The notes under the pieces were generated by a model. It made no database searches. It was not told the origin of the DNA and was given only the letters and a program-made list of their open reading frames with translations. A program made the translations under genes and the position numbers. Positions 42,095 to 60,015 of a DNA stretch of 64,000 nucleotides are shown here, in pieces; the stretch's first letter is position 1; the number at the start of each line of letters is the position of its first letter. Source of the stretch: a virus. The stretch lies in the IMG/VR virus record IMGVR_UViG_3300037042_007110, positions 1 to 64,000 of that record; one strand, given 5' to 3'.

Positions 42095-42111
42095 CCAGCG
42101 CGGAGGACACC

Positions 42112-42594
42112 ATGGAGAAGCAGGAACGGAACGACCTGGACACGTTCAACGAGGATTCGATTCGGATCGACCCGATGGACCTGAACCGGGCGTACTGCGA
42201 GTTGCCCGGGCAACTCGCCTACTGGAACGGACAGCTCGCCGACCTGACCCACAAGGCGATGCTGGCCAAGGCCGACCACGAAGCCGACCGCGCCCGGGCC
42301 ACGCTTGCCATTCGGGAGGCGGACCGGCTCGACAAGGGCAAGATGACGGTCGGCGAGGTCGACGCCAAGGTGTTGCTCGACACCGAGGTGCAGGACGCGC
42401 AGATGGTGTGGATCGAGGCGGAGGCGGCTCGGCTGCGGGTGCGCGGTGTCGTGGACGCGCTGCTCGCGAAGCGAGACATGATCCAGAGCCTCGGTGCGAA
42501 GCTCCGCGCTGAGATGTGGGCGGACCCCGTTCTGCGAGACCAGATGGCGGCGGCAACGGCCATGGAGTTCGGACATCGGGGCAACCACGAGTAG
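42112..42594 (+). CDS. Coiled-coil protein upstream of SSB, unknown
   Basis: 160 aa, ATG with GGAGG upstream. Highly helical and charged: LPGQLAYWNGQLADLTHKAM to IREADRLDKGKMTVGEVDAK and a final helix with ALLAKRDMIQSLGAKL. Phages often encode a conserved coiled-coil protein of about this size near their single-strand-binding protein. Role unknown, probably in recombination or replication. Confidence 0.7.
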   Translation: MEKQERNDLDTFNEDSIRIDPMDLNRAYCELPGQLAYWNGQLADLTHKAMLAKADHEADRARATLAIREADRLDKGKMTVGEVDAKVLLDTEVQDAQMVWIEAEAARLRVRGVVDALLAKRDMIQSLGAKLRAEMWADPVLRDQMAAATAMEFGHRGNHE

Positions 42595-42658
42595 AACGCC
42601 CGGAGCAGCAAGCGAGACAAGCCAGGCAAGTACGCCAGGCAGGGACAAGGAGAAGGAC

Positions 42659-43444: not shown

Positions 43445-43455
43445 GCGACACGCAC

Positions 43456-44427: not shown

Positions 44428-44436
44428 CCAGAGCGG
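44417..44436 (+). promoter_or_regulatory. Leader hairpin CCGCTC-AATAACCA-GAGCGG
   Basis: Perfect 6-base arms with the UvsX stop codon in the loop, followed by AAGGGG and the ATG at 44451. The clearest copy of the CAATRACC leader. Confidence 0.5.
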
Positions 44437-44450
44437 AAGGGGAACACACC

Positions 44451-47257: not shown

Positions 47258-47288
47258 CGTCCTGCCTTGCAGGAAACCCACAGACGCT

Positions 47289-47294
47289 CAATAA
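47289..47294 (+). promoter_or_regulatory. CAATAAC leader copy
   Basis: GACGCTCAATAACGGAAGGGG, 30 bases after the sbcC-like stop, so here the TAA is not a gene's stop codon. It leads to the ATG at 47319. Confidence 0.45.
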
Positions 47295-47318
47295 CGGAAG
47301 GGGAGTGGAGGTAGCGCG

Positions 47319-47576
47319 ATGGGGCTCTACGACAGGCAGACCAGCCTCAAGATGTCCGAGGCGGAGGAGCTGTCTTGGCGACAGGCGGCGGCGGCGAACG
47401 GGATGCCGCTTCAGACGTGGATGCGTGTGACGCTGGACTACGCGGCGGGGTGCGGTCAACTGGCCGAGCAACTGACCGCGGCGGCCGGAGCGCAGCGGGT
47501 CGAGCACGCGGCGCTCATGCGGGACGCGAAGGCGCTCGGCGGGCCGACGAAGGCGCAGGGCGGGCGGAGGAGGTAG
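47319..47576 (+). CDS. Small ribbon-helix-helix-like protein
   Basis: 85 aa. TSLKMSEAEELSWRQAAAAN followed by GMPLQTWMRVTLDYAA looks like a ribbon-helix-helix fold (strand, then two helices) of CopG/MobC-type DNA-binding proteins. The C-terminus is basic (GGRRR). Overlaps the next gene by one base. Confidence 0.6.
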   Translation: MGLYDRQTSLKMSEAEELSWRQAAAANGMPLQTWMRVTLDYAAGCGQLAEQLTAAAGAQRVEHAALMRDAKALGGPTKAQGGRRR

Positions 47577-48019
47577 TGCCGACCGCGCGGGTCACCGTCT
47601 GTGCCGAGTTGCCCGGGCTTGTGGACTGGCTGCTCGGATGGAACCGCTCGGCGCCAAGAGGCTCCGACCTCTGGCCGGACCAGGTCGCCGCCCTGTCCCG
47701 CGTGGCCGCGCGCCTGGCGAACGAGCCGACGGAAGACGACCCCGAGCACCGGCAGGCCTGGAAGCCGTCCGACACGCTCGTCCGGGTCAACAACTTCTGG
47801 ACGGACGTGGCGTACCTGAAAGCCCGTGGCCCGCGCGGGCCGGCTGGCCGTGTGTTGTGGCCTCCGAAGGACAGGGAGCTGATCACGCACGCTCGGTACG
47901 TTTGCCAGCTCGCCGTGGCGGCCCGGCCGCACCCCGACGAAGTGGCCGCTGCTCTGGAGCGGTTGCTGCTGGCGGCGAACATCATGGAGGCGGAGTGGCG
48001 CCTGGGAGGCGGGCTGTGA
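47576..48019 (+). CDS. Small protein ending EAEWRLGGGL, unknown
   Basis: 147 aa, GTG start within the previous stop, GGAGG upstream. Helical, with LPGLVDWLLGWNRS and DQVAALSRVAARLA. Its final residues NIMEAEWRLGGGL are nearly the same as the end of the next protein (SIMDAEWRLGGLGL), so the two share a C-terminal module. Unrecognised. Confidence 0.65.
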   Translation: MPTARVTVCAELPGLVDWLLGWNRSAPRGSDLWPDQVAALSRVAARLANEPTEDDPEHRQAWKPSDTLVRVNNFWTDVAYLKARGPRGPAGRVLWPPKDRELITHARYVCQLAVAARPHPDEVAAALERLLLAANIMEAEWRLGGGL

Positions 48020-48324
48020 CCGTTACCGACCGCACGTCCGCCGACGAGCTGCGCGACCTCATGCTTGCGCTCTGCGGCGAAGCGATTCAAATGGGGTGCT
48101 CGAGCTGGTACTTGTCAAGCGAGGTGCGGCGGCTCCGCGGAATGGACTGTTCCGCCCCCATTCGCAAGCAGACCAGGGACGGCTTCAGGCGGTCGATGAG
48201 CGTCGTGGACTCCATCGCCCTCGGGATGCCGGCGAGCGCAGCCTTCAGGGAGATGCGCGCTGCAGTCGGCCGTGCCTGGTCCATCATGGACGCGGAGTGG
48301 CGCTTGGGCGGGCTGGGCCTGTGA
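48016..48324 (+). CDS. Small helical protein ending DAEWRLGGLGL, unknown
   Basis: 102 aa, GTG start in a GTGA overlap. ELRDLMLALCGEAIQMGCSS and SMSVVDSIALGMPASAAFRE are helices. C-terminal kinship with the preceding protein is noted there. Unrecognised. Confidence 0.62.
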   Translation: MTVTDRTSADELRDLMLALCGEAIQMGCSSWYLSSEVRRLRGMDCSAPIRKQTRDGFRRSMSVVDSIALGMPASAAFREMRAAVGRAWSIMDAEWRLGGLGL

Positions 48325-48361
48325 GCATCGGATTGCCAGCGGCCGGCGGCGGGGCGGGTCG

Positions 48362-48883
48362 ATGAGGCGGCCGGCCGGCTGGGCGCTGACCGACCCGGAG
48401 TTCGGCACGCCGCCCGCGCTGGCGAAGTCGCTGGCTGTTCGGTGGGCTGGCGGCGCGTTCGACCTGGACGTGGCCGCCAGCGACGCGCTCCACGTCTGTC
48501 CGACCTACTTCACCGCCCGCGACGACGGGCTGACGCAGCCGTGGGCCGGCGTCTGCTACATGAACTGCCCCTACGGAACGGCCGAGCAGCGATGGGTGAC
48601 GAAGGCGCGGGCGGAGGTGCTGACCGGGCGGGCTCGCCGCGTTGTCGCCCTTCTGCCTGCGAAGACGGGGAAGGTCTGGTGGCGAAGGTTCATCGTCGCT
48701 CAGGATCAGCCTCCGGCCGGTGGGCTCGTCCTCGTGTACCCCGCGTTCCACTTGGAGTTCCTGCCCAACAAGCTGCGGTACGTGCGGCCGGATGGGGTGC
48801 CGCTCGACAAGGCACGGTTCTACTCGGTCGTGGTCGTGTTCGAGGACTGGGCGGGCCGCGCTCGGTGCGCGGGCGCTCAATGA
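48362..48883 (+). CDS. Phage N6-adenine DNA methyltransferase (Dam type)
   Basis: 173 aa. WALTDPEFGTPPALAKSLAV, FDLDVAASDALHVCPTYFTA, DDGLTQPW and YMNCPYGTAEQRWVTKA follow the pattern of the phage-type DNA N6-adenine methyltransferase family. VALLPAKTGKVWWRRF is its late motif. The catalytic tetrapeptide is NCPY (68-71), whereas NPPY or DPPY is usual; the change may affect activity. It may protect phage DNA from restriction. Confidence 0.8.
   Translation: MRRPAGWALTDPEFGTPPALAKSLAVRWAGGAFDLDVAASDALHVCPTYFTARDDGLTQPWAGVCYMNCPYGTAEQRWVTKARAEVLTGRARRVVALLPAKTGKVWWRRFIVAQDQPPAGGLVLVYPAFHLEFLPNKLRYVRPDGVPLDKARFYSVVVVFEDWAGRARCAGAQ
48878..48883 (+). promoter_or_regulatory. CAATGA leader copy in palindrome GCGCTCAATGAGCGC
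   Basis: Perfect 7-base arms around one central A, followed by GTGGGGAACGG and the ATG at 48904. Confidence 0.45.
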
Positions 48884-48903
48884 GCGCGGTGGGGAACGGG
48901 ACC

Positions 48904-49959
48904 ATGCAGCTTCACGAACAGAACCCGGAGTTGACCGCTCGCGTGATGGCCGCGGTGCGGCGGTCGAAGCGCAAGGACGGGCTGACAGCGACCAACGTTG
49001 GCCGGCGGTGCGGGCTTCCACCGTCGAACTCCGGGAAGGACGACCCCGACGTGCGGATGCGTGTCCAAGGCTCGTACCAGGAGGTGCGTGTGCTGCTCGG
49101 CTACCTCGTCGACATCGGGTGGCTCGAGAGGCTCCGTGGGCGGGGCGGCTCCTCGTACCGTCTGGCGTCGGAGACTGTTCGCGAGCAACACGTCACGGAC
49201 GCCGGCAGAAACGCGGCGGCCGAGGACGTGTGCCGCGCGCTCGGTGTCCTGTACGACGGCACCCCGACCGTCTACATCAGGGCGGAAGAGATGCCGGACG
49301 TGCGGTCGGTGCTCCTGATGACCGGGCTGGTCGCGAGCGGGCCGCCGCACGGACGGGCGATCACGCTGACGCTGACGGCGGACGAGGCGACGTTGATCCG
49401 GGGACTCCTAGAGCCGGCGCGAATCGAGGAGGCGGTGCTCTTGGACCGGCTTGGCGCAGCAGTGGCGCGGGCAGCGACCCGGCGGCTGGGTGTGGAACCG
49501 TGCCCAGCCTGCAGCGGCGGCGGTGTCGTGAGCCACACGGACTACGTCGGCTACCACAGCTGGCCCTGTGATCGGTGCGGCGGCTCCGGCGATGCGCCCG
49601 GAGGCGATCCAGCGGCGAGTACAGCGACACCGGACCTGCAACGACGGGCTCGCCGGCTCTCGTGCTCGCCGGATTGCCCGGGTTACAGGACGGTGCGCGG
49701 GTTCGCAACGAGCATCCTCCCAAGCGATTACATCCAGGTCGTCGGGTGCCGAAAGTGCGGGCTGTACAGGAACCGAGAGGCGGCGCTCGCCATATCGGCG
49801 GACCGAGCGATTGCGGTCGACGTCCGATCCGGAGTTCGGCGCCCGGTCATCGGGTCCGACGCGTGGATGAACTTCCGGAATCTCGTGTACGCCATTCCAG
49901 TCGAGGACGTCGTGGCGCTCGACTTGGCCCTCCCGGCGGCCGGAGGGGATGGGGGCTGA
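48904..49959 (+). CDS. Protein with winged helix and DnaJ-like zinc cluster, unknown
   Basis: 351 aa from the ATG at 48904 (GTGGGGAACGGG upstream); an ATG at 48880 overlapping the previous stop would add 8 residues. N-terminal winged-helix-like part (LTATNVGRRCGLPPS, EVRVLLGYLVDIGWLERLRG, GSSYRLAS). CPACSGGGVVSHTDY with CDRCGGSGDAP is a DnaJ-type CxxCxGxG zinc finger. CSPDCPGYRT and CRKCGLYRN form another Cys cluster. Possibly a regulator. Confidence 0.65.
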   Translation: MQLHEQNPELTARVMAAVRRSKRKDGLTATNVGRRCGLPPSNSGKDDPDVRMRVQGSYQEVRVLLGYLVDIGWLERLRGRGGSSYRLASETVREQHVTDAGRNAAAEDVCRALGVLYDGTPTVYIRAEEMPDVRSVLLMTGLVASGPPHGRAITLTLTADEATLIRGLLEPARIEEAVLLDRLGAAVARAATRRLGVEPCPACSGGGVVSHTDYVGYHSWPCDRCGGSGDAPGGDPAASTATPDLQRRARRLSCSPDCPGYRTVRGFATSILPSDYIQVVGCRKCGLYRNREAALAISADRAIAVDVRSGVRRPVIGSDAWMNFRNLVYAIPVEDVVALDLALPAAGGDGG

Positions 49960-49960
49960 C

Positions 49961-50389
49961 GTGCGCCAGAAGTTGGCCGCGCTGCTCGATCACCACGCTC
50001 CGCCAGAGGCGGTCGCCGCCTACCGACTGAGCGGCGGCCCGGCGACCGGCTTCGTGGTCCTGTCGGCACTCGAGACGGGGCTCTCGCACCACCCGGCGCT
50101 CCTGCTCCTCCTCTGCGACGACGGCGGGCCACCTTTGGCCGGGAAGCGATGGTGGGCGGGCCGTGGCTTCGTCGCGTTGACCCAGGTCATGCGGCCGACC
50201 AGCGGGGAGGCGGCGGACACGGACATCAGCACGACGGAGGTCCAGCTCCTGAACATCGACCCCGTGCAGGCGGACGGGCTGGAGGGTGCGGTCCGGCCCG
50301 GGGCGCGGCTGTCGCTGGCGTTCGACGCCATCCGGCGTCGCTGGTGCATTGGGGTTGACCGTGGGCGCGGGGATGTGGAGTGGTGGTGA
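49961..50389 (+). CDS. Small-protein family A member, unknown
   Basis: 142 aa, GTG start; an in-frame ATG at 49949 is possible. LAALLDHHAPPEAVAAYRLS is a loose match to the family A motif (L-x-x-LPPE-x-x-AE-x-RLG). Rest beta-rich (ALLLLLCDDGGPPLAGKRWW). First of a run of six adjacent family members. Confidence 0.6.
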   Translation: MRQKLAALLDHHAPPEAVAAYRLSGGPATGFVVLSALETGLSHHPALLLLLCDDGGPPLAGKRWWAGRGFVALTQVMRPTSGEAADTDISTTEVQLLNIDPVQADGLEGAVRPGARLSLAFDAIRRRWCIGVDRGRGDVEWW

Positions 50390-50754
50390 TGCCCAAGCAG
50401 CGGCACCGACTCCCGGGGAACCTGTTCGAGCGCATGCACGACGCCTTCGTGGAGGCGGCCGGAAACGACACGCCCGGGCTGGTCGGCGCGCTGCTCGGGT
50501 TTCTGCCACCGGAGATAGCGGCCGAGGTGAGGCTAGGCGGCGGGGCGCGCGTCAACATGTGGTTCGAGCACAGGAACAGCCTGGCGTTCGCCTACGCGTC
50601 GCTCGATGGGAGGACGTATCGGGTCGGGTGCTTGGACCGCGCCGACACCGAGGGTTTCCGGCGCCTTGTGGCTGCTGCGTTCGAGTGCCACATTCAGCTC
50701 CGGGTGCCACGTCAAGAGGCGCGGGCGCTCTGGAGGGGGACGAGGCGGCCGTGA
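50389..50754 (+). CDS. Small-protein family A member, unknown
   Basis: 121 aa, ATG overlapping the previous stop, GGAG upstream. The clearest family A example: GALLGFLPPEIAAEVRLGGG, then VNMWFEHR and ASLDGRTYRVG. The C-terminal half (RRLVAAAFECHIQLRVP) matches the end of the protein at 55681. Predicted as one helix packed on a beta sheet. Confidence 0.65.
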   Translation: MPKQRHRLPGNLFERMHDAFVEAAGNDTPGLVGALLGFLPPEIAAEVRLGGGARVNMWFEHRNSLAFAYASLDGRTYRVGCLDRADTEGFRRLVAAAFECHIQLRVPRQEARALWRGTRRP

Positions 50755-51113
50755 CGCACTGGCTGGATCGTCAGGTCTCTATTTCCAAGGCTGAGGGGCT
50801 GCGCATCCACAGGCGGATCGTGCGGAAGTTGCCAATGGTGGGTCAGGCGGCCGCTCGGCTCGGCGAGCCCGTGGCGCTTATGATCGAGACGGTGACCGTG
50901 CGCGGCAAGCCGTACGCGTGGATCAACCACGTTGTCTGGGCACGGACCTTGAGTTCCAACGAGCGTTGGACGCGGGTGTCGACGCTGTTGATGGCCAAGA
51001 CTGCGCGCAAGTACCTGACCGCGGCGCGGGCCGTTGGCTGGTCCGTGGAGTTCCGGAAGCGGAGCATGAGCGACGAGCAGCCGGACCAGCCAATGCCGGA
51101 AGACGAGGCGTGA
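50751..51113 (+). CDS. Small-protein family A member, unknown
   Basis: 120 aa, GTG start in a GTGA overlap. VRKLPMVGQAAARLGEPVAL and MIETVTVRG are the family A core. Then WINHVVWARTL and a helix TARKYLTAARAVG. Acidic tail. Unrecognised. Confidence 0.6.
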   Translation: MTHWLDRQVSISKAEGLRIHRRIVRKLPMVGQAAARLGEPVALMIETVTVRGKPYAWINHVVWARTLSSNERWTRVSTLLMAKTARKYLTAARAVGWSVEFRKRSMSDEQPDQPMPEDEA

Positions 51114-51115
51114 GG

Positions 51116-51526
51116 ATGCCGTTCCGTCGGCGGGAGTTCGTGGGCGAGGACAGGAGCGGGCGGAACCTCTGCGACGTCTTGTTTCCCGGCACCGGGGACG
51201 ACGTGAAGGACTTGGAGGTGTCGGCCGGGCGGCTGCGGGCGCTGCTTCCGGAAGCCGTCCAGGCAGCCCTTCGGCTCGGTACACAGGGGACGCTCTGCGT
51301 CTTGACCGAGTTCCTGTGCGGCCAGCTCGAGCTCCGCCACCCGTTCGTCTGGCACGTCGTCCTGGTCGTCGACAACGAGTGCTACTCGCTTGGTGGGTGC
51401 CACGGGTGGGGCACGCCGACAGCGGTAGCCAGTTGCGCGCAGACGCTCGGCCTTGGGTACGAGGACGGGGCCGCGGAGACCCCGAAAGGCGCCCTGTTCA
51501 ACTACGACCGTGGGTGGCTGTCGTGA
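51116..51526 (+). CDS. Small-protein family A member, unknown
   Basis: 136 aa, ATG 2 bases after the previous stop. LRALLPEAVQAALRLGTQGT and LCVLTEF form the core; then VWHVVLVVDNECYSLGG. Six Cys. Unrecognised. Confidence 0.6.
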   Translation: MPFRRREFVGEDRSGRNLCDVLFPGTGDDVKDLEVSAGRLRALLPEAVQAALRLGTQGTLCVLTEFLCGQLELRHPFVWHVVLVVDNECYSLGGCHGWGTPTAVASCAQTLGLGYEDGAAETPKGALFNYDRGWLS

Positions 51527-51536
51527 GGGCGTACTG

Positions 51537-52028
51537 ATGGGGCAACAAACGGGGCAACAAACGGGGCAACAAACCACGCAACTATGCGAGCAGCAAGGCG
51601 AAGATGGTATCGTGCTCCGAACGAGTTTGGAAGACGATTTGTTCCGGGCTTACATGACCTTCGACGGCGGGGCATCCGTGGACAGATGGGGGTACACGAA
51701 CGCCCGTCGGATGACCGATTGGAACCTGGCGAAGCAAGCCATCCTGACCGGCGTGGTGCTTCGCCGTCTGCCCGACGCGACCGGAGCAGCGATCCGTCTC
51801 GGCGAGCGGGCGTGCGCGGTGGTGACGGTTGAGACCAGGGAGCACCGGCGACGGAAGCCGGGAGGGCACGTCGTTGTTCGGCAGCTCAATCTGCACGCGC
51901 TGGTGAGGGTGCTGGGACGGACGTATCGGCTCGGCTCCGTCCGACGCAAGCGGGCCAGGGAGCTGTTGAGGGAGGCGTTGCTCGGGTGTTGCGTGTCGGT
52001 GTGCTGGGACGGGAACGTGCTGAAGTGA
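51537..52028 (+). CDS. Small-protein family A member with repeat-encoded Gln-rich N-terminus
   Basis: 163 aa. The N-terminus MGQQTGQQTGQQT comes from three 12-base tandem repeats that match the iterons in the initiator gene. Core: LRRLPDATGAAIRLGERACA, VVTVETRE, then LVRVLGRTYRLGSV. It is flanked by other family members. The repeat suggests a DNA site shared with the origin or transferred from it. Confidence 0.62.
   Translation: MGQQTGQQTGQQTTQLCEQQGEDGIVLRTSLEDDLFRAYMTFDGGASVDRWGYTNARRMTDWNLAKQAILTGVVLRRLPDATGAAIRLGERACAVVTVETREHRRRKPGGHVVVRQLNLHALVRVLGRTYRLGSVRRKRARELLREALLGCCVSVCWDGNVLK
51538..51573 (+). repeat. Three 12-base repeats CGGGGCAACAAA
   Basis: Units at 51538-51549 (first base T), 51550-51561 and 51562-51573. 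Near-identical to the CGGGGCGACAAA units at 35406-35453. Confidence 0.6.
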
Positions 52029-52525
52029 GCCGGCCCGGACCACTCGTCATCGCGCCTCCGGTGACGCTCGCGGTGGTCGCGAGCGCGCTTCTCCAGCGGG
52101 TGTGCGACGTGCTGCCGCCGGACAAGGCGGCGCTGCTCCGGCTTGGCCAGACGTTCCCGTTGGCGATCGGCTGGCGCTTCCTGGCGAAGTACTCGGACGG
52201 CCCGAGGGGAAGCGGCCGGCTCCACGTCTGCGTCCGCGCCGTGGGGAAACGCGACGGGTGTTCGGCCTACCTGGGCTTCCTGCCCGGTTTCGACAAGTCG
52301 GGTCAGGACGCGACGACCATCACGCAGGCGGCCATGGAGTACGGCTGGGCTGTGGACCCCGGCGCCTACGCAGCCGAAAGCGCGTGCTCCTCGTGCAGAC
52401 GCCGGTCGCGCGACCCGACGACCCCGTACATGGCGCGGTGCTGGTGGCACCATCGGACGCTCAAGCGCCGGGTCGCCCTGCTCCAGCGTCCTCGGGGCGT
52501 CGGCGGGCCGACCTGGTCGTGGTAG
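52025..52525 (+). CDS. Small-protein family A member with Cys-rich C-terminus
   Basis: 166 aa, GTG start in a GTGA overlap. VCDVLPPDKAALLRLGQTFP and LAIGWRFL are the family core. The C-terminus has CSSCRRRSRDPTTPYMARCW, a possible zinc site, then basic residues. Last member of the first run. Confidence 0.6.
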   Translation: MSRPGPLVIAPPVTLAVVASALLQRVCDVLPPDKAALLRLGQTFPLAIGWRFLAKYSDGPRGSGRLHVCVRAVGKRDGCSAYLGFLPGFDKSGQDATTITQAAMEYGWAVDPGAYAAESACSSCRRRSRDPTTPYMARCWWHHRTLKRRVALLQRPRGVGGPTWSW

Positions 52526-52577
52526 ACGACCTTCCGCGTCCGCCGAAGCGGTGACCGCTCGCCAGCTTGCAGACGCC

Positions 52578-52634
52578 GTGCAGACGATGCTGACCGGTGC
52601 AGACGATGCTGACCAGGTGCAGACGATGCAGACC
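52578..52634 (+). repeat. Tandem repeat GTGCAGACGATGCTGACC x3
   Basis: Units at 52578-52595, 52597-52614 and 52617-52634 (last one GTGCAGACGATGCAGACC), lying between converging genes just downstream of the radical SAM gene's stop. No T-tract terminator seen. Confidence 0.6.
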
Positions 52635-52644
52635 CCGCTCCCAC

Positions 52645-53784
52645 CTATCGGACCCAGTCGGTGAGCGGCATGAGGATGTCCAGGTCGCGAGGCCCGAGCC
52701 GGCACTGGCGCGCCCCTGCCCGCCGGAGCCAGGCGGGGAGCGTCTCCTTGTTGTGGATGCCCCGCATCAGCCAGTAGAAGCGGAAGGCGCCGAGCGCGCG
52801 GTCCGTCCAGTAACGGCCCACGTGCTTGCCGGCCCGTTCGATCTTGTCCAGCGGGACGTACTGCTGCGGGTACGGGCGGATGCCGAGCCGGAGGACCTCC
52901 ATCAGCTTGTAGTGCGACTCCGCCGGCGTGTCGTGGAAGTTGTAGAGCACGAACGCCATCATGTCCTCGACGTGGCACCCCGCCTTGATGAGCCGGCGGG
53001 CCGCCGACTGGAACACGCCATCGTCGCCGACCCGGTCGAAGCTCATGCGGAGCCCCGACAGCCCGTACCGAAGCCGGGCCAGCCGTGCGGCCACGTCGTC
53101 GTCGACCCGGTGGCAGTCGAAGCCGTTGTCGAAGCACGCCTTGAGTCCCGACGCTTCCACGGCGTCCAGCACGGCGGTCCAGTGGGCGTCGGGCCACGCG
53201 AGCAGGTTGTTGTCGCTGACGAGGACCGTGTCCTTGCCGCGGACGACCATCTGCTCACGCCACCCCTCGACGACGTAGCGGGGCCGCTCGATGCGTCCGA
53301 CCACGCAGTATGGGCAGGAGTTTGGGCAGCCGCGGGTCGTGTAGACGAAGGCGGCCGTCTCGAACTTGGGGTCGGGCCGCCAGGCGAGCGAGTAGTCGGG
53401 ACGGACCGCGTCCAGTACCGGGGAGGTGCCGCAGAAGACGTCGGCCCCGGTCGCCCCGGCCACAAGGTCGGGCATGAGCGACGCCAGTACCCCGCCAACC
53501 ACGATGCGAGCTCGCGGCGCGACTCGCCTCGCCCGGTCGATGGACTGGATGAGGATGGTCAAGTCCTGCGTCCACAACGACCCCACGCAGACCAGGTCCA
53601 CGTCCGCGTCGCCACGGTTCAGCCACCGCCCGTACCGCGGCGCCTTCCCAGCCAGCCGTAGATAACCCGCGATCCGCGCGAGTCCCATCGGGATGTGCTT
53701 CCGCCGATGCGGCGGCTCGAGCAGGAATACCACCCGCCCGGCGTCCAGCGCTCCGAGCATCTCCGCTTCCGTCAGTCGTGCCAT
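52645..53784 (-). CDS. Radical SAM protein with B12-binding-like N-terminal domain
   Basis: 379 aa; ATG at 53784 with AAGGAG upstream. N-terminal half: EPPHRRKHIPMGLARIAGYL, DLVCVGSLWTQDL and IVVGGVLASLMPDLVAG, as in B12-binding domains of radical SAM enzymes. The radical SAM core has TTRGCPNSCPYCVVG (C153, C157, C160 bind the 4Fe-4S cluster), followed by VLVSDNNLLAWPD and MSFDRVGDDGV. Substrate unknown. It is a lone minus-strand gene bracketed by tandem repeats, so possibly acquired; nucleotide or tRNA modification are candidates only. Confidence 0.82.
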   Translation of the reverse strand: MARLTEAEMLGALDAGRVVFLLEPPHRRKHIPMGLARIAGYLRLAGKAPRYGRWLNRGDADVDLVCVGSLWTQDLTILIQSIDRARRVAPRARIVVGGVLASLMPDLVAGATGADVFCGTSPVLDAVRPDYSLAWRPDPKFETAAFVYTTRGCPNSCPYCVVGRIERPRYVVEGWREQMVVRGKDTVLVSDNNLLAWPDAHWTAVLDAVEASGLKACFDNGFDCHRVDDDVAARLARLRYGLSGLRMSFDRVGDDGVFQSAARRLIKAGCHVEDMMAFVLYNFHDTPAESHYKLMEVLRLGIRPYPQQYVPLDKIERAGKHVGRYWTDRALGAFRFYWLMRGIHNKETLPAWLRRAGARQCRLGPRDLDILMPLTDWVR

Positions 53785-54044
53785 CGTCGCGTGGCTCCTT
53801 CCCAGCCCACGCCCCGAACTCTACCGGGTGGTGGCCAGCGTATCCAGTGGCCAAGCCCTCGGCGGCCCGTGAGCAACAGGACGGGGAAGTAGGACGGACG
53901 GAGCAGCGCGGCCGGCTTGGGTGGTTGCCCGGTGTACCCGGCCGCGGTGACGGCGCCGGGTGCAGAAGCGGGCGCACCCCGTTGTCAGGCTGGATGACCG
54001 GCCCCAGGTCGAGTACAGTCGTGTGGACAACGGAGGCGGTCCCC
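53785..54044. promoter_or_regulatory. Divergent intergenic region
   Basis: 260 bases between the minus-strand radical SAM gene and the HTH gene. TACAGT at 54014-54019 could be a -10 for the rightward gene. No gene with a credible start and coding character seen. Confidence 0.35.
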
Positions 54045-54860
54045 GTGAGCGAGAAGTCAGAACCCCTGTGCAAGCCAATCGAGCGGGAGGTCTATGACGC
54101 GCTGCTCGCTGCGTTTCGTGCCGTACCCGGAAACGTCAGTGCTGCTGCGAAGGCGGCGGGGGTCGCGCGTAAAACGGCACGATTAGCACTACTTAGGGGC
54201 TGGCCGGCCCGCCGGTGGCCGCCGATTCGGGACGTGTTGGAGCAGGAGCAACGGCTGGCCAGGGCGATCCGATTTCAGGCCGATGGTGGGGGCGTGCAGG
54301 CGCCCGGCGGCGATACAGCTTCCGTGCAGACGCCGGGTTCTATGGCAGCACTCCAGGCCTCCCCGCAGGGGCTCCATCCCGAAGCCGCACGGAAGCTGGC
54401 CTTGGACGCGGAAGCGGCCGCGCTCGACGCAGCCCGGGCACGAGCTCAGGAAGGACAGATGGTCCAGCTGTCCCGCGGCAACACCATTGCCCTGATGGGC
54501 ACGACAAGCCACCTGCTCCGAGCGGGCGTGGCCCGTGCGCAGGCGCTGCAGAAGTCGCTGGACGCTGGCGATGTGCTGCTGACGCCCGCGCAGACGTTGC
54601 AGTTCGTCTCGAGCTGCGGGTACTTGGCGAAGACCGCGGCCGAAGCCGCGGAGACCACCATGCGAATGGAGCGCCTCCTCCTCGGCGCGCCGACCGAGAT
54701 ACTCGGCATCCAGGCCGACCGCATGTCCATGGACGACGCCGAGCGCGTCATCGACATGGCCTCCCGGGCGCTCGAGCGCGTCCGAGCCCAGGAAGGCCTC
54801 GTGCGGGTCGAGGCTTACGTCGTGGACCCGCCGCCCAAGGGCGAGCCGCGCAAGCCGTGA
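54045..54860 (+). CDS. HTH protein resembling terminase small subunits, unknown
   Basis: 271 aa, GTG start with CGGAGG upstream. N-terminal helix-turn-helix: FRAVPGNVSAAAKAAGVARK followed by TARLALLRGWP. The middle is a spacer with VQAPGG and VQTPGS. The C-terminal half is helical (LALDAEAAALDAARARAQEG; VSSCGYLAKTAAEAAETTM). The N-terminal HTH is like that of small terminase subunits, but no large terminase is adjacent, so a transcription regulator is equally likely. Confidence 0.6.
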   Translation: MSEKSEPLCKPIEREVYDALLAAFRAVPGNVSAAAKAAGVARKTARLALLRGWPARRWPPIRDVLEQEQRLARAIRFQADGGGVQAPGGDTASVQTPGSMAALQASPQGLHPEAARKLALDAEAAALDAARARAQEGQMVQLSRGNTIALMGTTSHLLRAGVARAQALQKSLDAGDVLLTPAQTLQFVSSCGYLAKTAAEAAETTMRMERLLLGAPTEILGIQADRMSMDDAERVIDMASRALERVRAQEGLVRVEAYVVDPPPKGEPRKP

Positions 54861-54890
54861 GCGCGGGCGGACGAGGCTGCCTGCCGCGGT

Positions 54891-54917
54891 TCACCATGCT
54901 CACCATGTTCACCACGC
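54891..54917 (+). repeat. Three 9-base repeats TCACCATGY
   Basis: TCACCATGC, TCACCATGT and TCACCACGC in tandem, leading directly into the 20-base repeat array. Confidence 0.5.
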
Positions 54918-54997
54918 TGTAGAACATGCAGGCCGGCTACAGACCATGCAGACCGCCTGTAGAACATGCAGACCGCCTGTAGAACATGCAGACCGGG
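54918..54997 (+). repeat. Four tandem 20-base repeats
   Basis: Consensus TGTAGAACATGCAGACCGCC; units start at 54918, 54938, 54958 and 54978. They share TGCAGAC with the repeats at 52578-52634. No spacers, so not CRISPR. Confidence 0.65.
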
Positions 54998-55187
54998 GCG
55001 CTTCCGTACAGACTCCGAACACTTGGCGCGGTTGTAGGTCCATCCGCGCGGAGCCACGACCTCACAGACTGTACACCGATTCCGCGGTGAGCCGGCCTGT
55101 CGGGGCCGGCCGCGACGGGACGCGCGCGGGCGCGCGAGTAGAGAACGCCGTCCTGTGGCCTCCCCGACCCCGTGCCGCGCCCACCGA

Positions 55188-55250
55188 GGCGCCAGGCCGG
55201 CTGGCCGTTCCAGCAGCACTCCGGCGGCGGCCAGCCGCCGGCCTGGCGCC
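55188..55250 (+). repeat. Long inverted repeat / stem-loop
   Basis: GGCGCCAGGCCGG + CTGGCC (55188-55206) pairs with GGCCAG and CCGGCCTGGCGCC (55229-55250) with a 3-base bulge: a 19-base-pair stem and a 22-base loop. Confidence 0.6.
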
Positions 55251-55285
55251 AGACCCGCATCCGGCCGGAGTCACCCTAACGATTT

Positions 55286-55325
55286 GGAGGGGTTGCCCCT
55301 CCAGGCCGGGCTCCGCTGCCGGAGC
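55286..55325 (+). repeat. Two adjacent hairpins
   Basis: GGAGGGG-TTG-CCCCTCC (55286-55302) and GCTCCG-CTGC-CGGAGC (55310-55325), in a locally less GC-rich setting with TAAAC after the second. Terminator-like spacing but no T-tract. Confidence 0.45.
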
Positions 55326-55667
55326 TAAACCCTCCATATCATTGACGAAACCGCCCCCCCGGGGGGGCCGCCGGCCGTGGCCGGGGCGGTGGGTGCTAAC
55401 GTGCTCCTCCATCCGCACCCTGAACTCACCCCTTGCGCCCCGCACGCAGTCCGCGCCGATTCTGCGAAGACGGCGCGGCTCCGGCCCGACGGCGCTGCTC
55501 GGGTGGGGGTCGGCGCGCTGCCGCCAATGCGCCACCGCCCCGAGCAGCCGCCCTTCTGCGCGGACTTGAGCCACCGTCCTTGGCCGCACAACGGGCTCCG
55601 CACCGACTCTGGCTTTGACCCGGCACCCTTTCGACGGCTTTGCTTCGTGCTGCGCCGCGGGCCGGCT

Positions 55668-55673
55668 CAATGA
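55668..55673 (+). promoter_or_regulatory. CAATGACC leader copy
   Basis: GGCCGGCTCAATGACCCGGCC has 6-base arms, and lies 8 bases before the GTG at 55681. No real gene ends here, which shows that the motif is an element in itself. Confidence 0.45.
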
Positions 55674-55680
55674 CCCGGCC

Positions 55681-56022
55681 GTGACCTTCATCGACAGAAC
55701 CGGAGCGCTGCTGACCACCGCCCCCACCGTGGAGGCTGCTGCCGTGGAGTCGGCCGAGGCGCGGCTCTACGGGCCAGTGGCCCACCAGCTCGTGATGATG
55801 GTGCCGCGAAGCGACCCGCTACAGCGTCGGGTCTTGCCGCCGGACCTGCTGCTCGACCTGAAGTTCGAGCGCGAGGTGGACACGGCTCCGTTCTTCGTCC
55901 CCAACCTGCGGGCCGCCCGCGACGCCGGCTACGTCGCGCTGTGCCTGGGACGGACCTACCGCCTGTTCGGCGTGAAGTCCCTGTTCGCCAGCGCGGTACA
56001 GCTCCGCCTGGTCGCCCAATGA
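55681..56022 (+). CDS. Small-protein family B member with family A-like C-terminus
   Basis: 113 aa, GTG start. N-terminal FIDRTGALLTTAPTVEAAAV then ESAEARLYGP matches the proteins at 59048 and 59482 (family B). The C-terminal half, RRVLPPDLLLDLKFER and CLGRTYRLFGV, matches family A (51537, 50389). It links the two families. Unrecognised. Confidence 0.6.
   Translation: MTFIDRTGALLTTAPTVEAAAVESAEARLYGPVAHQLVMMVPRSDPLQRRVLPPDLLLDLKFEREVDTAPFFVPNLRAARDAGYVALCLGRTYRLFGVKSLFASAVQLRLVAQ
56017..56022 (+). promoter_or_regulatory. CAATGACC leader copy
   Basis: GCCCAATGACCGCG; the ATG inside the motif is itself the start of the next gene (56019). Confidence 0.35.
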
Positions 56023-56405
56023 CCGCGTCGATGAAGGGCTTGCGCGTGTTCGCGCTGCGGTTCCTGTCCCCGTCGCCAGACGAGCCGACGGAGGCTGACC
56101 TGAACCGGCACGGCCTCCTCGACGTGGGGGCGCACGGGTGGGACATGCTGCTCTCGCGGCTGCCGCCCGAGGCCGAGGCGGAGGTGCGGCTCTCGGTGGT
56201 GCGCCCCGTCGTGTACATCGAGGTGGGGCGCGAGCTCAACCCGCACCGGATGGCGGTCGAGGTCGCCGGCCTCGGTCTGTACGACGTGGGCTGGTCCTGG
56301 TACTCGAGCCTGGTCGTGGCGGCGGCGGGCGGCTTCGGCCAGCGGATTCCGCTCCTGCTGTGGGACGCGGCGCTGGCCGGTCACTACGCCCGGCGGGCGC
56401 AATGA
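56019..56405 (+). CDS. Small-protein family A member, unknown
   Basis: 128 aa, ATG in an ATGA overlap; another ATG at 56031 is possible. LLSRLPPEAEAEVRLSVVRP, VVYIEVGRE is a strong family A match to 50389. The N-terminal 45 residues (VFALRFLSPSPDEPTEADL) are extra. Unrecognised. Confidence 0.62.
   Translation: MTASMKGLRVFALRFLSPSPDEPTEADLNRHGLLDVGAHGWDMLLSRLPPEAEAEVRLSVVRPVVYIEVGRELNPHRMAVEVAGLGLYDVGWSWYSSLVVAAAGGFGQRIPLLLWDAALAGHYARRAQ
56400..56405 (+). promoter_or_regulatory. CAATGACC leader copy
   Basis: GGGCGCAATGACCGGGCC before the GTG at 56413. Confidence 0.4.
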
Positions 56406-56412
56406 CCGGGCC

Positions 56413-56889
56413 GTGGCGAAGCGGAAGCCCGACGTCTTTCTGAACGGTCTGCTCCTCCTCGGCGATGATGACGCGCCCGACGGCCACGGCGACTACTTCT
56501 GGGAGCCGGGGCAGCTGCTCCCCACGTTCGGCTTCAACCCGAAGGAGGGGCACGTCCTCATCCTGGCCCGAGCCAACGGCGACAGGGAGGCGTTCATCTA
56601 CCGCGGCGGCGAGTGGCTCGGCGGGGTGGCGTCGGTGGTCAAGGCGATCAAGCGGCTCCACGGGGTCAGGGGCGTGCGGGTCATCTCCGCCCGCGACGTG
56701 CAGGGCGACTACAGCATCCTGATGGTGACCGCCGCCCGGAAGCACCACGCCGCGTTGCAGAAGATGGCCGAGGTCTTCATCGGCGGAACCTTCGCCGCGG
56801 TGCGGTGCATGGCGCTGATCCGCGCACCCGGGCTGTTGGGCGACGCGGACGAAGCCGCATGGCGCCTCGGGCAGCAGGCGAAGCCGTGA
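56413..56889 (+). CDS. Unknown small alpha/beta protein
   Basis: 158 aa, GTG start. GHVLILARANGDREAFIYRG then VASVVKAIKRLHGVRGVRVI, ILMVTAARKHHAALQKMAEV. The C-terminus DEAAWRLGQQ recalls the family motif. It overlaps the next gene by GTGA. Unrecognised. Confidence 0.6.
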   Translation: MAKRKPDVFLNGLLLLGDDDAPDGHGDYFWEPGQLLPTFGFNPKEGHVLILARANGDREAFIYRGGEWLGGVASVVKAIKRLHGVRGVRVISARDVQGDYSILMVTAARKHHAALQKMAEVFIGGTFAAVRCMALIRAPGLLGDADEAAWRLGQQAKP

Positions 56890-57524
56890 GCCGGGGCACC
56901 GGGTACAACAGGCGGCGGCGGGTTCGGCTACGGGAAGGCGCGGGGCTGCCCTACCGCTGGTGGGCGACGCAGAAGTCGGTCAGGTACAGCGTCAGCATCG
57001 ACTACACGACAGGTGCCGGACCCTTCTGGCCGGGGCGCGGGCCGTCGGAGGGCGCCCGACGGGTTCCGGTCTCGACGTTCGACGAGCTCGACGGCGACGC
57101 TCTGCGGCGGGCGCTGCTCGACCGGCTGCCGGACACGGTCGTCGCGGAGTGGCGGCTGGGGTGCGGCCGGCTCACGGTCTGGCTGGAGGAGCGGGCGGCC
57201 CGGGCCGAGGGCTTTCTGCCGACGGGCGTGCGTCGGCTCGGCCGGGCGGTCAGTCGACAGAAGGTCGTCTGCCTCAACCCGTTGCTGTCGCGGGAAGGCT
57301 GGTTTGTGACGACCCCGGAGTGGACGCCGGACCACGTCCCGGAGTGGTCGGCGGCCGGGCGGCTCGTGGTCGTGGACGTGGCTGTCTACGGGGTCGGTGT
57401 GTTCCGCGTCGGCCGGGCGACCCGCCCGAGTACCGTGGCCCGTGTGGTCGGAGCAGCAGTCGCGCTGCGGCTGCCCGCCTATGGCGACCCGGGCGCCGAG
57501 CTGTGGCTCCGGTCCGCGCAATGA
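56886..57524 (+). CDS. Small-protein family A member, extended form
   Basis: 212 aa, GTG start. An N-terminal basic segment, then LLDRLPDTVVAEWRLGCGRL and TVWLEERA as the family A core. The extended C-terminus (GRLVVVDVAVYGVGVFRVGR, VGAAVALRLPAYG) probably adds a second beta layer. Unrecognised. Confidence 0.6.
   Translation: MSRGTGYNRRRRVRLREGAGLPYRWWATQKSVRYSVSIDYTTGAGPFWPGRGPSEGARRVPVSTFDELDGDALRRALLDRLPDTVVAEWRLGCGRLTVWLEERAARAEGFLPTGVRRLGRAVSRQKVVCLNPLLSREGWFVTTPEWTPDHVPEWSAAGRLVVVDVAVYGVGVFRVGRATRPSTVARVVGAAVALRLPAYGDPGAELWLRSAQ
57519..57524 (+). promoter_or_regulatory. CAATGATC leader copy
   Basis: GCGCAATGATCAGGCCGGAGG, then the ATG at 57543; one base differs from the core. Confidence 0.4.
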
Positions 57525-57542
57525 TCAGGCCGGAGGCCGACC

Positions 57543-57668
57543 ATGTTCCACCACCCGACCGTGTTCCCGCGCTGGCTGGTGTGCCTCGCGTGGGTCATCG
57601 ACGGCGCCGTCGCGGCGGCCGCCGGCGCCGCCCGTTGGTTGCGGCGATTCCCGGGGTTCGAGTCATGA
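57543..57668 (+). CDS. 41-aa membrane peptide
   Basis: Reads MFHHPTVFPRWLVCLAWVID followed by GAVAAAAGAARWLRRFPG and stop. One hydrophobic helix (about 10-30) with a basic C-terminus. ATG with GGAGG upstream and an ATGA overlap with the next gene support translation. Unrecognised. Confidence 0.55.
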   Translation: MFHHPTVFPRWLVCLAWVIDGAVAAAAGAARWLRRFPGFES

Positions 57669-58027
57669 GCGAGTCCTACGTCAAGAGGATGCAGCGGGAA
57701 CGCGACGCGGCTGTCCGCCGGGCCGAGGCTGCCCAGGACGCGCTGGAGGCTGCTCTGGGCGGCGACCTGGCCTGGCAGAAGCGGCTGGCCGAGGAACGGC
57801 GCGATCGCTGCCGCGTGCTGTGGGCGGTGCTGGAGCACTACCGCGTCGCCGTCGCCGAGTTCATCGCTCCGACGGCGACGACCGACTGCGTCGCGGCGAT
57901 CAACCGGGCCGGGCGGGTAGCTGCCGTCGCCGTCGAAGGCGGGCCGCTCGGGCACCAGGGCGAAATCACGACCGAGGACAGGCCTCCGCTGGCCGATCTG
58001 GAGCGCATTCTCGGGGTGGTGCGATGA
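57665..58027 (+). CDS. Coiled-coil protein, unknown
   Basis: 120 aa. A helical first half (RMQRERDAAVRRAEAAQDAL, KRLAEERRDRCRVLWAVLEH), then IAPTATTDCVAAINRAGRV. Coupled by ATGA on both sides. Unrecognised. Confidence 0.62.
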   Translation: MSESYVKRMQRERDAAVRRAEAAQDALEAALGGDLAWQKRLAEERRDRCRVLWAVLEHYRVAVAEFIAPTATTDCVAAINRAGRVAAVAVEGGPLGHQGEITTEDRPPLADLERILGVVR

Positions 58028-58752
58028 TGCCCGCGTCGATCCGCGACCTCGTCGTCCGGGCCGTCGAGGCTGAAGGCTGGGACGGGCTATTCAACGAGGA
58101 CGGAGAGTGCGCCTGCGAGGCGCGCGACCTGTTTCCGTGCTGCGACCCGTCCGTCGACTGCATGCTCGGCATGAAGTGCCCGTGCCCGCCCGAGCTGTGT
58201 GGCGAGCACGACTGGCACATCGCGCCGGGCTGTCCGCGCGGCGCTGGGTCTGGTTTGCCCTCGGAGTTGAACATCGCAGCTGCGATGTCGCCGGTGAAGC
58301 CGCCCCGAGCCGACGAGCCGCTGCTGGAGGCGCTCGACAACCAATGCATGCTCGGGGACGACCCCGCCGATCCTGCGACGGCGATAGAGCGGCACGCACG
58401 CGAACTGATCGCGGAGCGCGACGCCGCCGTCGCCCGCGCCGAGAAGGCCGAGGCTGCTGTAGTGCAGTGGAAGGCGCGCTCCGCGTCGTGGGCCGCGTGC
58501 TTGAGGCTCTTCAAGAACGACGGTGACGTGGCCGACGTGGTCGCACTGATCGACGCCGCGCTCGATAGCTCCGACGTTGCCACCATGGCCGACACGCGCC
58601 GCGTTGACTGGCTAGAGACTCAGGACTGCTGGATCGGGCTGCGCGATACGGGCTCTGAGATCAGACCGCTGCGGTATGCCGGCGGGTGCTACAGACGCTC
58701 GGTGCGTGACGTAGTTGACGCCGCCCTGGTCGACGAGCCCGAGGAGGAGTGA
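58024..58752 (+). CDS. Cys-rich / coiled-coil protein, unknown
   Basis: 242 aa. N-terminal Cys-rich segment (CACEARDLFPCCDPSVDC, CPCPPELCGEHDWH, residues about 25-65), a coiled-coil middle (ELIAERDAAVARAEKAEAAV, as in phage Ea22-like proteins) and a C-terminal DTRRVDWLETQDCWIGLRD module. The order resembles accessory early proteins of lambdoid phages; function unknown. Confidence 0.62.
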   Translation: MMPASIRDLVVRAVEAEGWDGLFNEDGECACEARDLFPCCDPSVDCMLGMKCPCPPELCGEHDWHIAPGCPRGAGSGLPSELNIAAAMSPVKPPRADEPLLEALDNQCMLGDDPADPATAIERHARELIAERDAAVARAEKAEAAVVQWKARSASWAACLRLFKNDGDVADVVALIDAALDSSDVATMADTRRVDWLETQDCWIGLRDTGSEIRPLRYAGGCYRRSVRDVVDAALVDEPEEE

Positions 58753-58754
58753 CC

Positions 58755-59048
58755 GTGGGCACGCCAGACAGGATGCGGCGTCCGCCTTACCCGGTCTGTC
58801 CGGTGTGCGGAGGCCAGGTCGTCGGTGCGATGATGACGAGCGGCTCCGTTGAGATTGACGGTGTTCGGTTCTACCGACCGGAGGCCGTCTCGGTCTACTG
58901 CTCGTCCGGCGGCTGTAACTACGACAGGCTGCTCGCCGAGCTACCATTCCCTCCGGTTGACCAGAACAGGACGTCGGACGCCGCCCAGCGCGAGGCCACG
59001 GCGGTCAGTTCGCCGGGTGACCGCGCCGGGCGAAGGGGACCGCGCTGA
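58755..59048 (+). CDS. Small zinc-ribbon-like protein
   Basis: 97 aa, GTG with GAGGAGG upstream; a GTG at 58749 is possible. YPVCPVCGGQVVG with VYCSSGGCNY gives four Cys in a zinc-ribbon arrangement. Disordered basic C-terminus. Unrecognised. Confidence 0.6.
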   Translation: MGTPDRMRRPPYPVCPVCGGQVVGAMMTSGSVEIDGVRFYRPEAVSVYCSSGGCNYDRLLAELPFPPVDQNRTSDAAQREATAVSSPGDRAGRRGPR

Positions 59049-59482
59049 TGGGCGTTGCCGTGAACGATACCGTTGCGGGTCTAGACCCTGTGGTCTTCAT
59101 CGACACGCGGGGCTGCGCCGTCACGCTTGCCGCCACACGCCGAGCAGCGACGTTGGCCGAAGCCGAGGCGCGGCTCGGTGGGCTGCGGTACGAGGTCGAC
59201 ACGATGGCCGTCGGAGCCTACCGGCGCGTCGTGAAGGAGCGGGGACGGGGTGACGTCGTGGCGTCCATCCGTGGCGTCCGCCTTCCGCGCCCCTTCCGCG
59301 ACCGCGACGGCACATGTCGGTCGGTCTATGGTGACGTGTCGGAGCGTTGGCTCGCGTTGTCGCTCCGCGCCTTCATGCACTATCCCGTGCTCGCCGATTC
59401 CCGTTGGCTCTTCCTGCTTGGCGCCACGGAGGCGAATCGAACTTTGGAGCTCGAGCTCGTTTGGATGCTCGGAGCAAACTGA
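59048..59482 (+). CDS. Small-protein family B member, unknown
   Basis: 144 aa. VVFIDTRGCAVTLAATRRAA then TLAEAEARLGGLRYEV is the family B motif (FID-x-x-G...A-x-T...AEAEARLGG). The C-terminal region RWLALSLRAFMHYPVLADSR matches RTSEVTLWATAALQAYIGLP in the next gene in layout. TGATG overlap on both sides. Confidence 0.62.
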   Translation: MGVAVNDTVAGLDPVVFIDTRGCAVTLAATRRAATLAEAEARLGGLRYEVDTMAVGAYRRVVKERGRGDVVASIRGVRLPRPFRDRDGTCRSVYGDVSERWLALSLRAFMHYPVLADSRWLFLLGATEANRTLELELVWMLGAN

Positions 59483-59820
59483 TGGGGTCGCCGGCGAAAC
59501 CGCTCATCGTGGTGGACGAGGGCGGTGCGTTGCTCGTCTGTGCCAGAACCCAAGCGGACGCCGTGGCTGCCGAGGCGGAGGTGCGGCTCGGAGCCGACCT
59601 GGTTCCGGTCCTCTTCATGCGGATCGCGGACGAAGCTCCCGGCCTCCTGGTCGTTCTGTTGCTCTGGCGTGGGGGCCGCACGAGCGAGGTTACGCTCTGG
59701 GCGACGGCCGCCCTCCAGGCGTACATCGGGCTCCCGGTACGGTTCAACGATGCCGCGTGGGTGCTGAACGATGTGGAGCGGAGCGAGTGGGGCGTGATCC
59801 GGCTGACGCTCCGTCCGTGA
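59482..59820 (+). CDS. Small-protein family B member, unknown
   Basis: 112 aa. PLIVVDEGGALLVCARTQAD then AVAAEAEVRLGADLVPV is the family B core. Then LLVVLLLWRGG and WATAALQAYIGLPV. Paralogue of 59048 and 55681. Unrecognised. Confidence 0.62.
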   Translation: MGSPAKPLIVVDEGGALLVCARTQADAVAAEAEVRLGADLVPVLFMRIADEAPGLLVVLLLWRGGRTSEVTLWATAALQAYIGLPVRFNDAAWVLNDVERSEWGVIRLTLRP

Positions 59821-59836
59821 CAGGAGTCGCCGACGG

Positions 59837-59871
59837 TTTCTTTCTTCCTTGCGCGCGCCCACCGGGCGCGC
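59837..59871 (+). promoter_or_regulatory. Pyrimidine tract followed by 8-bp hairpin
   Basis: TTTCTTTCTTCCTT (59837-59850), very unusual in this GC-rich DNA, then GCGCGCCC-ACC-GGGCGCGC (59853-59871). The order is opposite to a rightward intrinsic terminator. It may mark a promoter or processing site. Confidence 0.35.
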
Positions 59872-59876
59872 AATGA
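59871..59876 (+). promoter_or_regulatory. CAATGACC leader copy
   Basis: GCGCAATGACCCGGGGCGCGGAGG leads to the ATG at 59896. It lies 51 bases beyond the previous stop codon, again independent of any gene end. Confidence 0.45.
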
Positions 59877-59895
59877 CCCGGGGCGCGGAGGCAAC

Positions 59896-60015
59896 ATGGC
59901 ACAGGAAGCGGAGATGACGAAGACCTCGCTGTCCAGGGCGGCCACTCCGGACGCGCCCGAGGCGCAGACGCGATGGAACCTCGCTGGACAGGCACCGGGC
60001 CGGGCCGGGCAATGA
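59896..60015 (+). CDS. 39-aa protein, truncated relative of the protein at 60257
   Basis: Starts MAQEAEMTKTSLSRAATPD, closely like MAQGAELTRTPLSAAVARD at 60257, and then diverges (APEAQTRWNLAGQAPGRAGQ). GCGGAGG upstream. Looks like a duplication remnant or a short regulatory peptide. Its stop overlaps the next start. Confidence 0.45.
   Translation: MAQEAEMTKTSLSRAATPDAPEAQTRWNLAGQAPGRAGQ
60010..60015 (+). promoter_or_regulatory. CAATGAGC leader copy
   Basis: GGGCCGGGCAATGAGCGGGGC; the ATG inside is the start at 60012. Confidence 0.3.

Follow-up and report, generated by a model that had tools for sequence, protein, structure and literature searches.

The host-takeover regions of large tailed phages, such as the SPO1 host-takeover module and the T4 early regions, consist mostly of unrelated small genes. 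Here we describe an array of small genes, designated family A, in a 64,000-base stretch of phage DNA (the window; bases 1-64000 of the 77156-base IMG/VR phage record IMGVR_UViG_3300037042_007110). Like the SPO1 and T4 regions, this array has small overlapping genes without a known family and occupies a non-structural region near DNA-metabolism genes; unlike them, many of its genes appear to be copies of one fold, and the likeness is one of gene layout. With respect to anti-restriction genes, the family A run lies near the gene for a Dam-type methyltransferase, and the gene that precedes the run (48880; window genes are cited by their first coordinate) resembles the restriction-alleviation protein Lar below threshold, whereas no match to an anti-restriction family was obtained for family A itself. 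In principle, phages with an accessory gene family in many copies are nothing new; the literature listings and abstract openings consulted name no comparable array.

Our results showed that the family A genes encode small paralogous proteins, 120-212 amino acids long in the window, with a common N-terminal segment. With a probability of about 0.52, we favor the reading that family A is a lineage-specific, diverged paralogue family in an accessory region, organized like an operon, whose products bind different host proteins rather than catalyzing reactions. A preliminary description, made from the window sequence alone, had listed eight family A genes, and all eight were found as open reading frames (ORFs) with these starts, each ending in a stop codon. 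They are given below with a probable ninth member; except for that member, each carries the family motif.

49961 to 50389, plus strand: atypical, long member, APPEAVAAYRLS; alternative ATG start at 49949
50389 to 50754, plus strand: 121 amino acids, LPPEIAAEVRLG, with LDGRTYRVG; modeled with AlphaFold2
50751 to 51113, plus strand: 120 amino acids, LPMVGQAAARLG, with AVGWSVEFRK; also the top non-training ORF for a post-motif profile (E 0.042)
51116 to 51526, plus strand: 136 amino acids, LPEAVQAALRLG
51537 to 52028, plus strand: 163 amino acids, LPDATGAAIRLG, with LGRTYRLG
52025 to 52525, plus strand: 166 amino acids, LPPDKAALLRLG, with EYGWAV; the copy in a sister phage has a 6-nucleotide deletion
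56019 to 56405, plus strand: 128 amino acids, LPPEAEAEVRLS
56886 to 57524, plus strand: 212 amino acids, LPDTVVAEWRLG
64703 to 65185 of the record (outside the window), minus strand: probable ninth family A gene, picked by eye from a scan for A-x2-RLG

The shared core proposed for these genes takes the form [LA]P-x4-A-x2-RL[GS], ungapped and with fixed spacing, in 8 of the 8 listed genes. The ninth reads ...FSDEDAAAIRLGERGRIRVHG...EIATSFGWDVAYSGG, with FS in place of the LP or AP of the other members, and its ORF has a third-position G+C content of 0.79. The first six genes were said to be adjacent and translationally coupled; adjacency on the plus strand held, and of the five junctions three overlap (by 1, 4 and 4 nucleotides) while two are gapped (2 and 10 nucleotides). 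The L-GRTYR(L/V)G segment, described as present in several members, was found in two of the eight (50389 and 51537), a variant occurring in 55615, which belongs to a separate group (family B, below). In the 56886 protein a long segment separates the motif from a C-terminal part resembling strand-helix-strand. When the eight proteins were shuffled internally, the motif was recovered in a mean of 0.0027 of the 8 (maximum 1 in 20,000 rounds). On rough gene calls, A-x2-RL[GS] occurs in 8 of the 12 plus-strand genes starting in 47.3-59.8 kb, compared with 3 of 50 genes elsewhere. The motif codons differ between members (R is AGG, CGA, CGG or CGT; L is CTA, CTC, CTG or CTT), and conservation is therefore at the protein level, which rules out a DNA- or RNA-level repeat.

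Because the motif was derived from these same window proteins, a distant relative of the phage provides a fairer test. The nearly identical sister phage, IMGVR_UViG_3300037486_000582 (108577 bases, with a 176-base terminal repeat), is 99.3-99.99% identical to the window phage, depending on the stretch; both records are metagenome assemblies. The sister's large terminase as query returned 56 loci including the sister itself, each holding the terminase and at most 2 kb on either side. The closest other phage, IMGVR_UViG_3300004481_000271 (108941 bases; hereafter the cousin), has a large terminase 68% identical to the sister's, and the remainder are at 48% or below. Of the cousin's 108.9 kb, 80 kb were read. 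No terminal repeat was found in its contig, and its family A locus spans the contig end, where a join is assumed. Among named phages, the window's tail sheath gene (3-2243, protein 3-2240) is only distantly matched; the best matches, at 26-27% over 55% of its length, are tail sheaths of Streptomyces phages, e.g. LuckySocke and BRock.

A 40-column profile (A2), built from nine window-phage members (the eight plus the minus-strand gene added by eye, whose own profile score is thus by construction), found 11 places in the cousin with expectation values (E) between 1.6e-7 and 0.007. One of these places is at 5.1 kb, and the other ten fall within 97.9-108.9 kb. A2 was run on 28 of the 56 terminase loci; in the 27 of these other than the cousin, its matches were weak and numbered five, spread over four records (E 9.5e-4 to 0.019). 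Against ORFs of at least 40 residues in the stretches covered, six cousin ORFs scored at E <= 0.001 and no reversed ORF did (best 0.0065); at 10.8 bits or more there were 11 cousin ORFs versus one reversed ORF (13.4 bits). The bare pattern matched 9 of 837 cousin ORFs, namely six family genes and three non-family ones, compared with a single match among reversed ORFs and an average of 0.7 (at most 4) after shuffling. The cousin thus holds about 15 family A members: 11 from A2, gene 98970 from a second profile (A7; E 1.3e-4), and genes 102722, 104937 and 99224, which were placed by eye. Since ten of the 19 rows of A7 are the cousin's own, its 13 matches there, one of which falls within the terminase gene, are largely by construction; across 50 of the 56 terminase-bearing records, four others matched once or twice (E 2.4e-4 to 0.016). 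Sixteen of the 24 members make up one alignment (A4), which leaves out 49961, six long cousin members and cousin gene 4742. That cousin gene is a weak counterpart of 49961 (30% over 63 amino acids, E 0.011 in a single direct comparison).

Following RLG, many members read in turn as a strand, a hairpin (for example GRTYR[VL]G), another strand and a helix, and then G-W-x-[VIR]. The last block lies 45-84 residues past RLG in 9 of the 24 cores, in 56886 and cousin gene 103539 probably by chance. A post-motif profile from nine cousin members placed window gene 50751 as the top non-training ORF (E 0.042), and the reverse profile, from the window phage to the cousin, placed gene 104937 likewise (E 0.078). 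The expectation that similarity reaches beyond the RLG stretch is thus borne out only weakly by sequence, in both directions; the structure models, which agree with each other, weigh more heavily.

Structure prediction gave one model per phage. The AlphaFold2 model of 50389, from a 16-row alignment (eight window-phage and eight cousin rows), had a predicted local distance difference test score (pLDDT) of 80.9 and a predicted template modeling score (pTM) of 0.67, with helices (H) and strands (E) at H12-23, H28-38, H41-48, E55-62, E65-72, E75-83, H87-99, E103-105 and H108-115. The AlphaFold model of cousin gene 104937, from eight cousin rows and no window-phage sequence, had pLDDT 72.5 and pTM 0.70, with H5-8, H13-28, H31-38, E44-49, E60-66, E74-81, H84-95 and E100-102. 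The order common to both is two helices, three strands, a helix and a short strand, with roughly similar spacing, and the motif closes the second helix of this common core. The predicted core of the two modeled members is therefore a helix, a second, short helix with A-x2-R-L-G at its end, three strands, a helix and a short strand, as would be expected of one fold.

No known fold was identified with confidence. Three Foldseek searches (one of PDB, two of BFVD) gave no match at E <= 0.001; all values were at least 0.011, and the best in PDB for the 50389 model was 0.15. The highest VIA-align Z-scores were 4.7 for the 50389 model and 5.7, with other entries, for the 104937 model, a range that the tool describes as common by chance. 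Eleven entries were common to both top-50 VIA-align lists, including 1wn9, 4z2m and small ribosomal chains (Z 3.7-4.4 and 4.1-5.1, respectively), and two small viral proteins, G8FV03 and A0A2K9VC10, occurred in the BFVD lists of both models. We take the ribosomal chains to be eL38; other weak neighbors of the 50389 model are presumably the Alu-domain proteins of the signal recognition particle (SRP9/14). Under these presumed identities, eL38 and SRP9/14 have a similar element order (helix, three strands, helix), but there is no sequence match, the Z-scores are in the chance range, and the family A models differ in an additional helix ahead of the one with the motif and in the shortness of their last strand. 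No winged-helix entry was recognized among the fold matches listed, and in the models the helices precede the strands.

PHROGs and Pfam were searched with ten window proteins at full length, and Pfam, PHROGs, NCBIfam and PADLOC with 16 members (15 as core segments). The preliminary description had recognized no known family, and in agreement with this there was no convincing match in these four libraries or among PDB sequences. The best library match was of one member to phrog_21647 (E 0.0015), a family without an assigned function; the best values in Pfam and NCBIfam were 0.038 and 0.041. The family profile found 0 PDB chains at E <= 1. A single-sequence search of IMG/VR with two members returned the sister phage only, and tblastn of two members in named phages gave two matches at E 7 for one and none for the other. 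The pattern LPP[ED]-phi-x-[AS]-x-phi-RLG, searched at the DNA level, occurred in five stretches of viral contigs, two of them in the cousin; the remaining three viral single matches, and 16 single matches in GTDB genomes whose ORFs were read, were judged to be chance. Inspection of family A by eye revealed no conserved catalytic residues or enzyme motif. The family is new to all libraries searched and, in these collections and at the sensitivity used, is confined to one lineage, comprising two distinct phages plus the sister.

BLASTP at 1e-3 against 80 kb of the cousin matched 0 of 9 family A genes; seven neighboring genes are 43-58% identical between the two phages (RecA-like 58%, SbcD-like 51%, SbcC-like 52%, the 47295 ORF 52%, the Dam-type methyltransferase 52%, the radical SAM protein 43% and 53877 47%). 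Within the cousin array, BLASTP still links seven pairs of genes, three of which have 40-44% identity across 61-80 residues (107705/108516, 40% over 73; 98970/99224, 43% over 61, the latter gene being one placed by eye; 102300/103123, 44% over 80) and four over shorter lengths. These mutual matches fit tandem duplication. An all-pairs BLASTP among the window family A genes gave no matching pair, and the window-phage duplications therefore look older. Copy number also differs, with about 9 in the window phage versus about 15 in the cousin. The proposal that the array is a tandem expansion of one fold thus gains from the cousin array found by profile, the two matching models and the cousin BLASTP pairs.

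The array has a comparable position in both phages, where family A genes flank the conserved gene 53877 on both sides. The window phage has six family A genes before it and two after; the cousin has nine before its counterpart, five after and one near the Dam gene. Upstream of the array are RecA/UvsX-like, SbcD-like and SbcC-like genes, followed by the Dam-type methyltransferase. The radical SAM gene interrupts the window array, and in the cousin its counterpart sits between SbcC and the array. Because this gene adjoins, a double-glycine leader was considered for family A and rejected: R-L-G-G is present in 1 of 9 members (50389), where some 70 residues of predicted fold follow it. The neighboring genes are as follows.

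48272 to 48883, plus strand: Dam-type N6-adenine methyltransferase, PF05869 (E 7.9e-15); true start uncertain
48880 to 49959, directly upstream of the array: two CxxC pairs; resembles Lar below threshold (E 2.3e-4; 21.8 bits versus a cut-off of 28.6)
52645 to 53784, minus strand: radical SAM protein (PHROG match, E 5e-26) that also has a B12-binding domain
53877 to 54860, plus strand: gene conserved in the cousin, no family match; start uncertain
65190 to 65957 of the record: DUF4417 protein (E 5.4e-49), divergent from the probable minus-strand family A gene

Several genes outside family A carry related segments, either as C-terminal tails or within the proteins of family B.

47576 to 48019, plus strand: not family A, tail EAEWRLGGGL; the GTG start at 47576 is inferred
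48016 to 48324, plus strand: not family A, tail DAEWRLGGLGL; the cousin orthologue keeps the tail
56413 to 56889, plus strand: not family A, tail EAAWRLGQQAKP; the cousin orthologue, 85380, keeps the tail
55615 to 56022, plus strand: family B, VTFID start, AEARLY, LGRTYRL near the C-terminus
59048 to 59482, plus strand: family B, VVFIDxxG start, AEAEARLG
59482 to 59820, plus strand: family B, LIVVDxGG start, AEAEVRLG; its ATG at 59482 overlaps the preceding stop

Family B proteins begin with [VI]-[FV]-[IV]-D-x2-G and share a segment that reads AE-A-x-RL or AE-V-RL. Both 59048 and 59482 have only AE-x-RLG, after a start unrelated to family A, and were grouped apart with 55615; a relationship between the two families is unproven, and no family B counterpart was found in the 80 kb of the cousin read. 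The 48016 protein is 33% identical to cousin 5254 (5254-5565) over 92 residues, and 56413 is 27% identical to 85380 (E 9e-7). In six ORFs of the two phages (in the cousin, 5254, 85380 and 86158), [DE]-A-x-W-R-L-G starts 9-12 residues from the C-terminus; in cousin 85030, A-x-WRLG lies 18 residues before the end. A tail scan of the 56 terminase loci found three ORFs, every one in the cousin.

The sister comparison, for which only family A counts and positional densities were used, showed 12 substitutions in 49949-52525 (4.66 per kb), versus 9 in 1-37787 (0.24 per kb) and densities of 0.99 in 37788-49948, 1.34 in 52526-60000 and 0.17 in 60001-65950. A second, unrelated hot spot of sister differences lies at 66.0-67.3 kb, where about 700 bases (record 66034-66745) are absent from the sister and the adjoining glycine-rich ORFs differ much between the two.

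We propose small host-factor-binding proteins because of where the genes lie, how they have been duplicated and how far they have diverged, and in view of the general character of phage accessory regions; a host-interaction or anti-defense role would fit the locus and divergence. The raised substitution density of the six-gene run relative to the sister, and the lack of conserved catalytic residues on inspection by eye, also count in favor of the proposal. The helix-pair-RLG segment would be a structural scaffold whose second helix is started by proline and ended by glycine, with alanine and leucine on one face by helix geometry, while the sheet and loops vary. During infection the proteins would be produced together, in the manner of an operon, and each might bind a different host protein, e.g. 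part of a defense system or a takeover target, acting through binding and not catalysis. Tandem duplication would supply new copies, which would diverge under pressure from host change.

Several observations weigh against this proposal. Divergence is not peculiar to family A, as 48880 and the three family B genes likewise had no match and 56413 matched at only 27%, and 29 kb of the cousin lie outside the comparison. The six-gene run differs from the sister by 10 protein-changing and 2 silent substitutions, a ratio that chance allows with 1884:660 sites (about 0.36, by hand), and positive selection is therefore not supported; assembly or recombination could also have raised the count in this run. 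The model alignments share cousin rows, and the two models are not wholly independent because the first alignment includes them. Past the first 40 residues, support from sequence becomes weak (E 0.04-0.08). Finally, PADLOC matched 0 of 16 members and PHROGs gave two unnamed families only, with one member each, none being a known anti-defense or takeover protein.

Ranked by probability, the alternatives are nucleic-acid binding, a docking peptide, virion proteins and chance. That family A binds phage DNA or RNA for replication, recombination or packaging would be in keeping with the RecA-, SbcD- and SbcC-like genes nearby and with weak fold neighbors presumed to be eL38 and SRP Alu-domain proteins; but Z does not exceed 5.7, within the chance range, and the Pfam and PHROGs searches of family A matched no nucleic-acid-binding family, and we regard this explanation as unlikely. 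Somewhat less probable in our view is that a single partner, of host or phage, docks onto A-x-[VILWY]-R-L-G in family A, family B and the three tails and thereby collects all of these proteins. The motif does sit in different contexts (after a helix in family A, mid-protein in family B and as a C-terminal tail on three unrelated neighbors), A-x-WRLG occurs in 8 ORFs versus 0.39 on average after shuffling (at most 3 in 300 shuffles), six of the ORFs having it near the C-terminus, and the tail is kept in the orthologue pairs 48016/5254 and 56413/85380. In the 50389 model, however, the motif is the second helix with its glycine cap, as expected for a core segment; a cousin counterpart of 47576-48019 chosen by eye, without a BLASTP match, has no tail; and 85030, 85380 and 86158 seem by eye to be paralogues, which reduces the number of independent events. 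The closing glycine codons of some tails also overlap the purine-rich stretch preceding the next start, which may account for GG, but not for W-R-L. An extended version of the host-directed reading, in which one scaffold duplicated in tandem on either side of a conserved gene yields binders with a changing sheet face, and the same peptide on unrelated C-termini recruits all of them to a common partner, as a copy-and-diverge host-attack machine, strikes us as distinctly improbable.

The small size of the family would suit minor virion or internal proteins, and a packaging signal could explain why a single segment is conserved and the rest varies; we consider this very unlikely, given that the sheath gene lies at the opposite end of the window and no called gene before 36 kb has A-x2-RL[GS]. 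It is hardly credible that a high-GC genome simply yields helices rich in A, R, L and G in unrelated genes. The motif residues are indeed encoded by GC-rich codons, the 40-residue core shows a mean pairwise identity of only 23%, and the bare pattern also occurs in the three non-family cousin ORFs, but the fixed spacing, the shuffles, the reversed-ORF control and the two matching models argue otherwise, and the cousin array already largely contradicts it.

Phage genomes are rich in small genes without relatives, and the targets of such genes are usually found singly. A recognizable scaffold, with arrays at matching loci in two phages and otherwise little conservation, provides a handle for picking members by profile, expressing them as a set and screening them against host proteins. 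The A-x-W-R-L-G tail on unrelated neighbors is an additional small puzzle that is directly testable. If family A is indeed directed at the host, comparison of the arrays would reveal how a phage diversifies one fold.

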